Assembly (NCBI RefSeq): GCF_900103505.1
Contig: NZ_FNIA01000005.1
Span: forward strand, 62,001-126,000
Direction: 5' to 3'
DNA length: 64,000 nucleotides
Origin: Haloarchaeobius iranensis
Lineage (GTDB): Archaea > Halobacteriota > Halobacteria > Halobacteriales > Natrialbaceae
In this document: piece by piece, positions 54,548-58,941 of the stretch
Position numbering within the stretch: position 1 is the stretch's first letter
How the letters are laid out: every line of letters begins with the position of its first letter
Notes under the pieces: generated by a model
What the model was told of the DNA's origin: nothing
Database searches by the model: none
Seen by the model: only the letters and a program-made list of their open reading frames with translations
Program-made: the position numbers and the translations under genes

Positions 54548-54556
54548 CCCTTTTGG
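54548..54556 (+). promoter_or_regulatory. TATA-like box for grpE
   Basis: CCCTTTTGG lies 24-32 nt upstream of the ATG at 54580. The 121-nt gap is shared with the divergent xpb gene. Confidence 0.4.
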
Positions 54557-54579
54557 TCACCCACTGGTTTGTTTCGCAC

Positions 54580-55614
54580 ATGGACGAAGACGAGGATACG
54601 GAGCAGTCGACCCCGGAGCAGGGGTCGGCAGCCGCAGACGAGCCGCCGGAGTCGCCTCCGGAGGAAGTCGAGGAACCCACTGACGACGCGGCGGTCGACG
54701 AGGATGGGACCGCCGACGCGTCGGCCGAGTCCGACGCGCAAACGCCCCCGGAGGAACCAGGACCCGAAGGCGCGCACGCGGCCGCCGACGAAGCGGAGTC
54801 GGAACCGGACGAGGGTGCGGACGCCGCCGCGTCGGACGAGCGGGCCCAGCCAGCGGGCTCGCCCGTCGGTGAGGACCTCGTCGAGCGCGCCAGCCAGTAC
54901 GAGGAGGAGCTCGGGGCCGAGGTGGCGGCGCTCGTCGAGCGGGCGTTCGAGCTGAAGGACGACGCGGACGACCTGCGTCGCCGGGTCGACGAGCTGGAGG
55001 GCGAGGTCGAGGACCTCGAAGACGAGCGCGAGGACCTGAAACAGCGTCTCGTCCGGAAGCAGGCGGACTTCAAGAACTACAAGGAGCGTTCGAAGAAGAA
55101 GCAGGACCAGATTCGAGAGCGCGCCACGGAGGACCTCGTCGAGCGACTCCTCCCGGTTCGCGACAACCTCACCCGCGCGCTCGACCAGAAGGGCGAGGAC
55201 GCGGACATCCGCGAGGGCGTCGAGGCGACGCTGCGTGACTTCGACCGCGTCCTGGAGGACGAGAACGTCGAGGAGGTCGTCCCGTCGGCGGGCGACGAGG
55301 TCGACCCACAGCGCCACGAAGTGATGGTGCGGGTCGACAGCGAGCTCCCCGAGGGCGAGATCGTCGACGTCTACCGGCCGGGGTACGAGATGGCCGACAA
55401 GGTCATCCAGACCGCGCAGGTGACCGTGAGCAACGGTGCCGACCACGAGCCCGACGAGGCGGTCGCTCTGGGCGGCGAAGTCGAGCAGGACGACGCGTCG
55501 GAGGAGTCGACCGACGACGCGTCGGAGGCCTCGGCCGACGAGGGGACAGGGTCGGCAGACGACGAGAAGGCACCGGCGGAGGAGGAAGCCGCCGCGGGCG
55601 ACAACCGGCACTGA
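54580..55614 (+). CDS. grpE: GrpE nucleotide-exchange factor with long acidic extension
   Basis: 344-aa protein against ~180-200 in typical GrpE. Residues 1-~105 are a Glu/Asp/Ala/Pro-rich disordered extension. The coiled coil (LKDDADDLRRRVDELEGEVE to RKQADFKNYKERSKKKQDQI) and the GrpE core (LLPVRDNLTRALDQKGEDAD; EVVPSAGDEVDPQRHEVMVR; RPGYEMADKVIQTAQVTVS) follow. The C-terminus adds another ~55 acidic residues. It exchanges ADP on DnaK and is the first gene of the grpE-dnaK-dnaJ group. Confidence 0.95.
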   Translation: MDEDEDTEQSTPEQGSAAADEPPESPPEEVEEPTDDAAVDEDGTADASAESDAQTPPEEPGPEGAHAAADEAESEPDEGADAAASDERAQPAGSPVGEDLVERASQYEEELGAEVAALVERAFELKDDADDLRRRVDELEGEVEDLEDEREDLKQRLVRKQADFKNYKERSKKKQDQIRERATEDLVERLLPVRDNLTRALDQKGEDADIREGVEATLRDFDRVLEDENVEEVVPSAGDEVDPQRHEVMVRVDSELPEGEIVDVYRPGYEMADKVIQTAQVTVSNGADHEPDEAVALGGEVEQDDASEESTDDASEASADEGTGSADDEKAPAEEEAAAGDNRH

Positions 55615-55634
55615 CGGCGGTCAGCGGCCGGAAG

Positions 55635-55737
55635 CGTAAAGCCAACCCCGACAAACGCGAAAATTAGCTTTACGGCCGGCATGCTGGCGAGCAACGGCTT
55701 TAATTCGTTGGAGAGTCGAGTAAAGCAAGTTTTAAAA
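55635..55737 (+). promoter_or_regulatory. dnaK promoter with GTAAAGC motif cluster and TATA box
   Basis: TTTAAAA (55731-55737) lies 27-33 nt before the dnaK ATG. Upstream, GTAAAGC occurs at 55636-55642, its complement GCTTTAC at 55667-55673 (with one more pair, CGTAAAGC/GCTTTACG), a related GCTTTAA at 55697-55703, and GTAAAGC again at 55720-55726, adjoining the TATA box. The 149-nt gap is A+T-rich for this genome. It is a good candidate for heat-shock control. The inverted pair alone could also terminate grpE transcripts. Confidence 0.55.
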
Positions 55738-55763
55738 CCTCAAGCGAGTTAGTAGACCTTAAC

Positions 55764-57662
55764 ATGGCGAGCAACAAGATAATCGGAATCGACCTTGGGA
55801 CGACCAACTCCGCGTTCGCGGTGATGGAAGGTGGCGATCCGGAGATCATCGTCAACAGCGAGGGCAACCGGACGACGCCCTCGGTCGTCGCGTTCACCGA
55901 CGACGGCGAGCGCCTGGTCGGCAAACCGGCGAAGAACCAGGCGATCCAGAACCCCGAGCGCACCATCGCGTCCATCAAGCGGCACATGGGCGAGGACGAC
56001 TACACGGTCGAGATCGACGGCGAGGACTACACACCGGAGGAGATCTCGGCGATGATCCTCGGGAAGCTCAAGCGCGACGCCGAGGAGTACCTCGGCGAGG
56101 AGGTCGAGAAGGCCGTCATCACGGTACCGGCGTACTTCAGCGACCGCCAGCGCCAGGCGACCAAGGACGCCGGCGAGATCGCCGGCTTCGAGGTCGAGCG
56201 CATCATCAACGAGCCGACGGCCGCCGCGATGGCGTACGGGCTCGACGACGACTCCGACCAGACCGTCCTCGTGTACGACCTCGGGGGCGGCACGTTCGAC
56301 GTCTCCATCCTCGACCTGGGCGGCGGCGTCTACGAGGTCGTCGCCACGAACGGCGACAACGACCTCGGTGGCGACGACTGGGACGAGGCCATCATCGACT
56401 GGCTCGCCGACGAGTTCGAGGACGACCACGGCATCGACCTGCGCGAGGACCGCCAGGCGCTCCAGCGTCTGAAGGACGCCGCCGAGGAAGCGAAGATCGA
56501 GCTCTCCAGCCGGAAGGAGACGGAGATCAACCTCCCGTTCATCACGGCGACCGACGACGGCCCCATCCACCTCGAGAAGTCGGTGACGCGGGCGAAGTTC
56601 GAGAACCTCACGCAGGACCTCATCGAGCGCACCGTCGAACCGACCGAGCAGGCGCTCGACGACGCGAACTACGACAAGGGCGACATCGACGAGGTGCTGC
56701 TCGTCGGTGGCTCCACCCGGATGCCCCAGGTCAAGGAGAAGGTCTCCGAGCTCATCGGGCAGGAGCCCAAGAAGAACGTCAACCCCGACGAGGCGGTCGC
56801 GCTCGGCGCGGCCATCCAGGGGGGCGTGCTCGGCGGCGAGGTCGACGACATCGTCCTGCTCGACGTGACGCCGCTCTCGCTGGGTATCGAGGTCAAGGGT
56901 GGCCTGTTCGAGCGTCTCATCGAGAAGAACACGACCATCCCGACCGAGGAGTCGAAGATCTTCACCACGGCCGCGGACAACCAGACGTCCGTGCAGGTCC
57001 GCGTGTTCCAGGGCGAGCGCGAGATGGCCGAGGACAACGAGCTGCTCGGTGAGTTCCACCTGACCGGCATCCCGCCGGCGCCGGCCGGAACGCCGCAGAT
57101 CGAGGTCACCTTCAGCATCGACGAGAACGGCATCGTCAACGTCTCCGCCGAGGACAAGGGCTCGGGCAACCGCGAGGACATCACCATCGAGGGTGGTGCG
57201 GGCCTCTCGGACGCCGAGATCGACCAGATGCAGGCCGAGGCCGAGGAGCACGCCGAGGAGGACCGCAAGCGCCGCGAGCGCATCGAGGCGAAGAACAACG
57301 CCGAGGCGACGCTCCAGCGCGCCGAGACGCTGCTCGAGGAGAACGAGGACGCCGTCGACGACGACCTCCGCGAGACCATCGAGGCCGAGATGGACGAGGT
57401 CGAGGCGGTCATCTCCGACGACGACGCGAGCAAGGAGGAGATCGAGGACGCAGCCGAGTCGCTCTCGACGGAGCTGCAGGAGATCGGCAAGCAGATGTAC
57501 GAGGGCGCGGCGGCTGCGGGCGGTGCCGGCGCCGCGGGCGGCGCAGCAGGCCCCGGCGGTGCGGCGGGCCCCGGCGGCGCAGCCCCCGGCGGTGACGCGG
57601 CCGAGGACGACGAGGAGTACGTCGACGCCGACTTCGAGGACGTCGACGACGACGAGGAGTAA
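55764..57662 (+). CDS. dnaK: Hsp70 chaperone DnaK
   Basis: 632-aa ATP-dependent chaperone. The ATPase domain starts [15 protein letters not shown], with [33 protein letters not shown] and [15 protein letters not shown]. The substrate-binding domain includes [16 protein letters not shown] and [17 protein letters not shown]. The C-terminus is a Gly/Ala-rich stretch and ends with the acidic tail [16 protein letters not shown], close to the EEVD-like bacterial end. Halophilic acidic composition is evident. The promoter is described separately. GrpE is upstream and DnaJ downstream, the standard trio. Confidence 0.98.
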
Positions 57663-57765: not shown

Positions 57766-58941
57766 ATGAGTGAGGACTTCTACGACGTTCTCGGTGTCGG
57801 CAGGGACGCGTCCGAGGACGAGATCAAGCAGGCCTACCGGAAGAAGGCCGCCGAGTACCACCCGGACGTGTCCGATGCGGAGGACGCCGAGGAGAAGTTC
57901 AAGCAGGTGAAGAAGGCGAAGGAGGTCCTCACCGACGACCAGAAGCGCCAGGCGTACGACCGCCTCGGCCACGAGCGCTTCGAGCAGGCCGAGAAGCGCG
58001 GTGGCTTCGACCAGGGCGCTGGCGGCGGTGCGGGCGGCTTCGGCGGCGGTCGCGGTGGGGACCCCTTCGGCGGTCAGGGAGGTATGGGCGGCATCAACGA
58101 CATCTTCGAGCAGTTCTTCGGCGGCGGCCAGGGCGGCCAGCGCGGGCAGAGCCGCGGGCCACAGCCCGGCCGCGACCTCCGGACCCAGATCAGCCTCGAC
58201 CTCGAGGAGGTGTACGAGGGCGTCGAGAAGCAGGTGACGATATCTCGGCCCGCGCACTGCGACACGTGCGAGGGCGAGGGTCACCCGCCGGACGCCGACG
58301 TCGAGACCTGTCCCGAGTGCAACGGCCAGGGTCGGGTCACGCGCGTCCAGCAGACCCCTCTCGGGCGGGTCCAGCAGACCCAGACCTGTCGCCGCTGCGA
58401 GGGCGAGGGCGAGCTGTACGACGAGCAGTGTGCGGACTGCGGCGGCGACGGCGTCGTCGCGGAGGAGGCCTCCCTCTCCGTCGAGATTCCCCCGGGCGTG
58501 CAGCACGGCCAGACCATCCGGATGGGTGGCGAGGGCGCGGTCGGCGAGCCCGGCGGGCCACGTGGCGACCTCATCATCGAGGTCAGCGTCGCCGACCACG
58601 ACGACTTCGAGCGCGAGGGCGACGACCTCTACTACCGGCTCCCCGTCTCGTTCCCGCAGGCGGTCTTCGGCGACACCGTCGAGATAGAGACCCTCGGCGG
58701 CCGCGTCGAACTGGAGATCCCCGAGGGCACCCAGAGCGGCGAGACCTTCCGCCTGCGCGGCAAGGGGATGCCGCACCTGCGTCGCCGAGGCGAGGGGGAC
58801 ATGTTCGTCCAGGTCCACGTGGTGACGCCGTCGGACCTGAACGAGGAGCAGCGCGAGGCGCTGGAGGCGTTCGCCGAAGCCGGCGGCGAGGACATCGAGG
58901 TGAAGAAGGGGTTCTTCGAGAAGATCGAGAGCTTCTTCTGA
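57766..58941 (+). CDS. dnaJ: Hsp40 co-chaperone DnaJ
   Basis: 391-aa co-chaperone that stimulates DnaK. J domain (1-~70) with the HPD motif in AAEYHPDVSDAED, a Gly/Phe-rich linker (GAGGGAGGFGGGRGGDPFGG), and a zinc domain with four C-x-x-C-x-G-x-G repeats (CDTCEGEG, CPECNGQG, CRRCEGEG, CADCGGDG). It ends with the C-terminal peptide-binding domains. Start at 57766, 103 nt downstream of dnaK, with its own T-rich promoter region. All parts are present and the length is standard. Confidence 0.97.
   Translation: MSEDFYDVLGVGRDASEDEIKQAYRKKAAEYHPDVSDAEDAEEKFKQVKKAKEVLTDDQKRQAYDRLGHERFEQAEKRGGFDQGAGGGAGGFGGGRGGDPFGGQGGMGGINDIFEQFFGGGQGGQRGQSRGPQPGRDLRTQISLDLEEVYEGVEKQVTISRPAHCDTCEGEGHPPDADVETCPECNGQGRVTRVQQTPLGRVQQTQTCRRCEGEGELYDEQCADCGGDGVVAEEASLSVEIPPGVQHGQTIRMGGEGAVGEPGGPRGDLIIEVSVADHDDFEREGDDLYYRLPVSFPQAVFGDTVEIETLGGRVELEIPEGTQSGETFRLRGKGMPHLRRRGEGDMFVQVHVVTPSDLNEEQREALEAFAEAGGEDIEVKKGFFEKIESFF

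Follow-up and report, generated by a model that had tools for sequence, protein, structure and literature searches.

In bacteria, dnaK is controlled by the CIRCE/HrcA system, CIRCE having the form TTAGCACTC-N9-GAGTGCTAA; at up to three mismatches, this element has no match in the window, as we call the whole 64-kb stretch of Haloarchaeobius iranensis DNA that was analyzed. Transcription of Natrinema hsp70 is reportedly the subject of a paper by Zhang et al. from 2009. The hsp70 promoter of Natrinema sp. J7 is orthologous to the one described here, and the Natrinema loci in our set carry both an upstream element (element A) and the core described below. The hsp70 mRNA of strain J7 is reported to have a 4-nt 5'-UTR (PMC4574771), and a 2015 paper from the same line of work refers to conserved elements among haloarchaeal hsp70 promoters as unknown. 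Judged by our sequence comparison, these promoters do appear to share conserved elements. We recognized no description of a haloarchaeal hsp70 promoter element or architecture in the searchable literature, a weak negative result, with subscription papers lying mostly outside that literature.

Several other archaeal heat-shock systems have been described. In Halobacterium, dnaK is reported to be heat-regulated, rising about 1.7-1.8-fold (PMC1971269), and deletions of tbpD and tfbA are reported to lower hsp1 and cctA, with dnaK going unmentioned in the main text (PMC2121645); these deletion data agree with a separate wiring of dnaK, without showing it. Control of hsp5 has been ascribed to a BRE and a TATA box read by TFB2 or TFBb, which are said to suffice (PMC9133787, citing Lu et al., 2008). 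The dnaK promoter resembles that of hsp5 in serving a stress gene through a specific BRE/TATA core, but it adds an upstream element in fixed phase, and its core letters depart from the general haloarchaeal BRE, published as CGAAA alongside a TATA of TTWT (PMC4983044). Phr of Pyrococcus and HSR1 of Archaeoglobus are described as winged-helix heat-shock regulators that also control their own genes, the Phr operator comprising TTTA at -10, TGGTAA at the start site and AAAA at +10 (PMC9133787). The sites at dnaK differ from these operators in sitting upstream of and at the BRE. The HSR1 operator CTAAC-N5-GTTAG was not found in the gap between grpE and dnaK at two mismatches, and its single two-mismatch match, in the dnaK coding region, is at chance level.

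This gap (149 nt, 52% G+C) extends between the end of grpE at 55614 and the start of dnaK at 55764. The locus contains the following features:

54553..55614, + strand: grpE, the 5' neighbor; ORF, best NCBIfam GrpE match E = 2.2e-32, under the model's curated cut-off
55626 and 55674: GGCCGG, the flanks of the inverted pair
55635..55642, + strand: first GTAAAGC copy, CGTAAAGC, with GTAAAGC itself exact from 55636
55667..55674, - strand: inverted copy, GCTTTACG, with inverted GTAAAGC at 55667-55673
From 55697, by the count of the initial annotation: near copy, GGCTTTAA, with GCTTTAA at 55697-55703
55699..55707, + strand: upstream element A, TTTAATTCG, consensus TTTWATTCG, 24 nt before the core
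55720-55726: third GTAAAGC copy, exact, overlapping the dnaK core
55723..55735, + strand: dnaK core, WAGYAASNTTTAA, with AGCAAG at the BRE position (55724-55729)
55730-55737, + strand: TATA-like TTTTAAAA, following the BRE-position letters
55738..55756, + strand: TATA-to-start stretch, in which the A at 55751 is invariant in the profiles
55760..55764, + strand: expected transcription start, predicted from the Natrinema J7 hsp70 analogy and the spacing from the TATA
55764..57662, + strand: dnaK; ORF, NCBIfam DnaK E = 3.2e-279
57766..58941, + strand: dnaJ; ORF, NCBIfam DnaJ E = 1.8e-131

The GTAAAGC copies and the inverted pair

The initial annotation had reported exact or near copies of GTAAAGC at 55636, 55667 (inverted), 55697 and 55720 beside a TATA box, together with a perfect 8-nt inverted pair bearing GGCCGG on both sides. 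These positions were confirmed, and the pair CGTAAAGC/GCTTTACG is present with both of its flanks. Within the window, GTAAAGC occurs three times, always in the gap, against an expected 1.07 (at least three copies in 8 of 100 shuffles). In 20,000 dinucleotide shuffles, the chance was 0.0001 for three copies of this given 7-mer in the gap, 0.09 for any 7-mer in at least three copies and 0.13 for any 8-nt inverted pair, so that the cluster counts as mildly unusual, which the pair does not. With a spacer of 5-40 nt, the pair is found at a single place in the H. iranensis genome (listed on both strands).

Comparison among the six genomes of the genus separated these copies. The 55720 copy belongs to a longer block, GTAAAGCAAGTTTTAAA, that is invariant in all six. 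The 55636 copy is present in five, in one of them shifted by 1 nt, and was not seen outside the genus. The inverted 55667 copy, and hence the pair, is exact in H. iranensis only and is probably incidental. An operator role for the inverted pair was rejected, as the pair is species-specific and within chance (13% of shuffles). A hairpin or terminator in the RNA was also considered; the segment 55612-55700 folds through the pair, not clearly better than its shuffles (z = -1.20).

Among 125 distinct haloarchaeal dnaK promoters, GTAAAGC stands at the core position only in this genus and Halorubellus, other promoters having TAGTAAC, TAGCAAG and similar letters there, and two Halomarina promoters show its reverse complement over the TATA (within the last 130 nt). 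Neither GTAAAGC nor the inverted pair is enriched at the dnaK promoters of relatives, where the initial annotation would have expected them. The search it had suggested before other heat-shock genes likewise gave no upstream match: GTAAAGC, the core and TTTWATTCG were all absent in the genus at 18 of 18 thermosome matches and at 30 of 42 hsp20 matches, the latter being those for which loci were returned; the region covered ran from the beginning of each family match back to 450 nt upstream of it. The single GTAAAGC match in these loci lies inside a thermosome coding region. Six thermosome promoters have a different TATA region, TTTATATAG and variants of it, and co-regulation of the thermosome and hsp20 genes with dnaK was rejected for want of a common motif. 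GTAAAGC as a conserved unit was rejected too, being confined to the genus and Halorubellus and absent before the thermosome and hsp20 genes. Because a core is common to all 103 promoters of our first set, GTAAAGC amounts to a local variant of the letters at and near the BRE position. At the 55697 and 55720 sites of the initial annotation, the letters that are conserved read TTTAATTCG and AAGCAAG-TTTTAAAA. As far as the sequences indicate, the repeated letters are mostly incidental, yet the last two copies overlap a conserved promoter.

The core and its upstream elements

To describe this promoter, 80 named loci and whole-genome loci were combined into 125 placed dnaK promoters, of which 103 were distinct, that is, not identical to another over the last 80 nt (identical ones were counted once). 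From 26 additional dnaK upstream regions, 22 were added to give an enlarged set of 125 distinct promoters, four being omitted (duplicate, too short or with no recognized start); it should be noted that all these counts cover related, non-independent sequences. The core WAGYAASNTTTAA is present at 11 or more of its 13 letters in 103 of 103 distinct promoters (72 at 13, 24 at 12 and 7 at 11 letters, each score being the best of its window and thus partly favored by the search itself), always 37-46 nt before the start codon. In the H. iranensis window, the core reads AAGCAAGTTTTAA, and it is unique in the genome. Two of its letters deviate from CGAAANNTTTAWA, both of them in the BRE part, and the window has no other + strand match to CGAAANNTTTAWA within two mismatches. 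An archaeal TFB/TBP promoter has a BRE and a TATA some 25 nt ahead of its start, an arrangement found here relative to the predicted transcription start.

Upstream of the core, element A is exact in 51 of the 103 promoters. Its distance from the core is 24 nt in 50 of them; the remaining one has it at 25 nt, with another TTTWATTCG copy at 49. At eight or more of nine letters, it is present in 58 of the 125 distinct promoters (53 with the 24-nt distance and 5 with 25 nt). The exact spacing is held across at least 16 named groups (15 genera, plus MAG-only groups taken together), and within the genus the element forms part of a second invariant block, TTTAATTCGT, at 55699-55708 in all six genomes. 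A search of 61 genomes for TTTWATTCG-N16-AGYAA returned 28 matches, one per genome in 28 genomes and all before dnaK, against none for the reversed control; these were 28 of the 37 genomes of the host's family and 0 of the 24 others. By itself, TTTWATTCG occurs 11 times in the H. iranensis genome (three for the reversed control) and just once with the core. When the family was sampled with a single genome for each genus (28 for each gene), 8 of 19 columns from -30 to -12 at dnaK reached at least 1 bit, whereas none of 19 did so at a winged-helix gene used as a control. In the searched genomes, the bipartite site occurred at dnaK and nowhere else, so that its input appears dedicated to this gene and not common to the thermosome and hsp20 genes. 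An 11-nt word, TGGCGAGCAAC, which varies in relatives, occurs both at 55685-55695, 5' of element A, and at 55765-55775, at the dnaK start codon.

A different element, B (AAAYCGCANGACNGCG, two positions free), was found at 14 or more of 16 letters in 35 of the 125 distinct promoters, a score that 2 of 2,500 shuffled promoters reached. In 33 of the 35 it stands 49 nt ahead of the core, with a single promoter each at -48 and -50. The clades with element B include Haloferax, Halobellus, Halorussus, Halorhabdus, Halomarina and others, all without element A, and no promoter among the 125 carries both elements. At a looser cut-off (B at 13 or more letters, at -48 to -50), 58 promoters carry A, 40 carry B and 27 carry neither. 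The length of the grpE-dnaK gap ranges from 107 to 519 nt in the B group, where the script could measure it (many values were unreadable), and because it varies, it does not dictate the fixed spacing. Element B was also considered as a palindromic operator and rejected, as one outer pair showed no covariation and the other weak covariation. Two Halolamina loci (L038, L066) contain a GAACCGCAAGCGGGCG stretch similar to element B but spaced differently from the core. Natronococcus and relatives (L047, L052, L059, L071, L280, L283) are without element A, and a second TATAAT-CCAAAGTG unit lies in these loci about 35 nt 5' of the dnaK TATA-CCAAAGTG unit.

The stretch between the TATA and the start is strongly kept within clades and differs between them. 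In most of the family it contains AAAGTGCGCACAA, which is almost absent elsewhere in the genomes (19 of 23 matches at dnaK). A role of CAAAGTGCGCAC as a regulon site was rejected, its 23 matches in 21 of 61 genomes falling at dnaK in 19 cases and scattered in 4, with none in the genus. The B clades have CCGRN-N4-NCGGT at this place, the variable pair of which covaries (complementary in 24 of 37, against a shuffled mean of 15.7, with relatedness ignored). Neither this word nor the family word AAAGTGCGCACAA is present in the host genus.

Readings of the dnaK promoter

Taken by sequence, the core WAGYAASNTTTAA recurs throughout the sampled haloarchaea, with element A at 24 nt in one large clade and element B at 49 nt in others. 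The presence of two promoter pieces at a fixed distance in many relatives suggests a dedicated dnaK switch, and we consider it probable that the site is a dnaK promoter built of separately conserved modules and served by a putative upstream factor, the GTAAAGC copies not being working units. A TFB paralogue and TBP would bind the core and direct a nearly leaderless mRNA start at about 55760-55764. Their assembly would be helped or tuned by a sequence-specific factor that occupies the upstream element on a constant side of the helix. Clades seem to have swapped the upstream input and kept the core. The view of the initial annotation that there is more structure here than a plain promoter needs was right, in that conserved modules stand at fixed spacings at dnaK. 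Its reading of the GTAAAGC sites as a regulator array for heat-shock genes did not hold up: three exact copies lie within 91 nt, two of them 84-85 nt apart and largely retained in the genus, but the inverted copy is not conserved there, the motif is missing before the thermosome and hsp20 genes, and beyond the genus and Halorubellus the last 130 nt of the 125 promoters contain no GTAAAGC, all of which makes such an array extremely unlikely.

A more serious contender, though in our judgment still an unlikely one, is that general factors act alone, a stress-induced TFB/TBP pair reading the variant BRE and TATA and the upstream elements adding basal strength only. The part conserved across the class is exactly the BRE/TATA, hsp5 is described as controlled in this way (PMC9133787), and the genus is rich in TFB genes, with 21-31 TFIIB-domain matches per genome in its six members (G000-G005), roughly two per protein; if two domains correspond to one protein, this paralogue set is unusually large. 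Left unexplained are a 9-letter element at one exact spacing and another element in other groups. TTTWATTCG might instead be a second, upstream TATA box, giving tandem dnaK promoters. It resembles a TATA, two other genes of H. iranensis (L215, L220) likewise have TTTTATTCG 29-32 nt ahead of their starts, and Natronococcus has its upstream TATAAT copy; however, no conserved BRE precedes TTTWATTCG (no column above 0.7 bit from -45 to -25) and its TTCG letters, unexpected in a TATA, are kept at 98-100%. Element A was rejected as a TATA box for lack of a BRE ahead of it, and we regard tandem promoters as very unlikely. For two sets of clades, the comparison yields the exact letters and spacings of dnaK promoter elements, and it points to a wiring of dnaK separate from that of the thermosome and hsp20 genes.

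A 101-residue winged-helix protein

Another possibility involves the winged-helix gene mentioned above (G000:C49:136119-136418, L109), which encodes a 101-residue protein (MIDRLEKEVDML...) with orthologues in 61 of 61 genomes at 63-100% identity, more distant second copies aside. Its promoter and leader hardly vary: the last 18 nt before its start, GACAAGTTAACAAATGCC, are invariant in 28 genera of the family, and its core is as strict as that of dnaK. A search of 31 genomes for AGYAASSTTTAAM gave 18 matches (nine at dnaK, seven at the winged-helix gene and two others), against 19 for the reversed-pattern control; as the total does not exceed the control, the case for a shared core lies solely in which genes were matched. 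The dnaK gene could then form a single-target circuit, in which the winged-helix protein, as a class-wide regulator, would control itself and act through AGYAASSTTTAAM, with clade-specific partners reading element A or B. Such a circuit, which would share with Phr and HSR1 the combination of autoregulation and target control, seems to us distinctly improbable.

By eye, the core letters of 58 dnaK and 61 winged-helix loci showed no clear coupling (dnaK was not matched in three genomes, G051 was too short and the winged-helix gene of G025 gave no start), and in G011 AGCAAC at dnaK stands against AGTAAG at the winged-helix gene. No good core was found at dnaK and/or the winged-helix gene in several distant lineages (G019, G026, G028, G050, G053, G059). 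The structural model of the protein (mean pLDDT 91.0) shows a winged helix flanked by long helices and is most like the CggR DNA-binding domain, with the Pfam CggR_N match under its cut-off. Sequence comparison with the PDB gave a weak match (E = 0.029) to 2p4w, labeled an ArsR-family regulator, which we take to be Phr of Pyrococcus.
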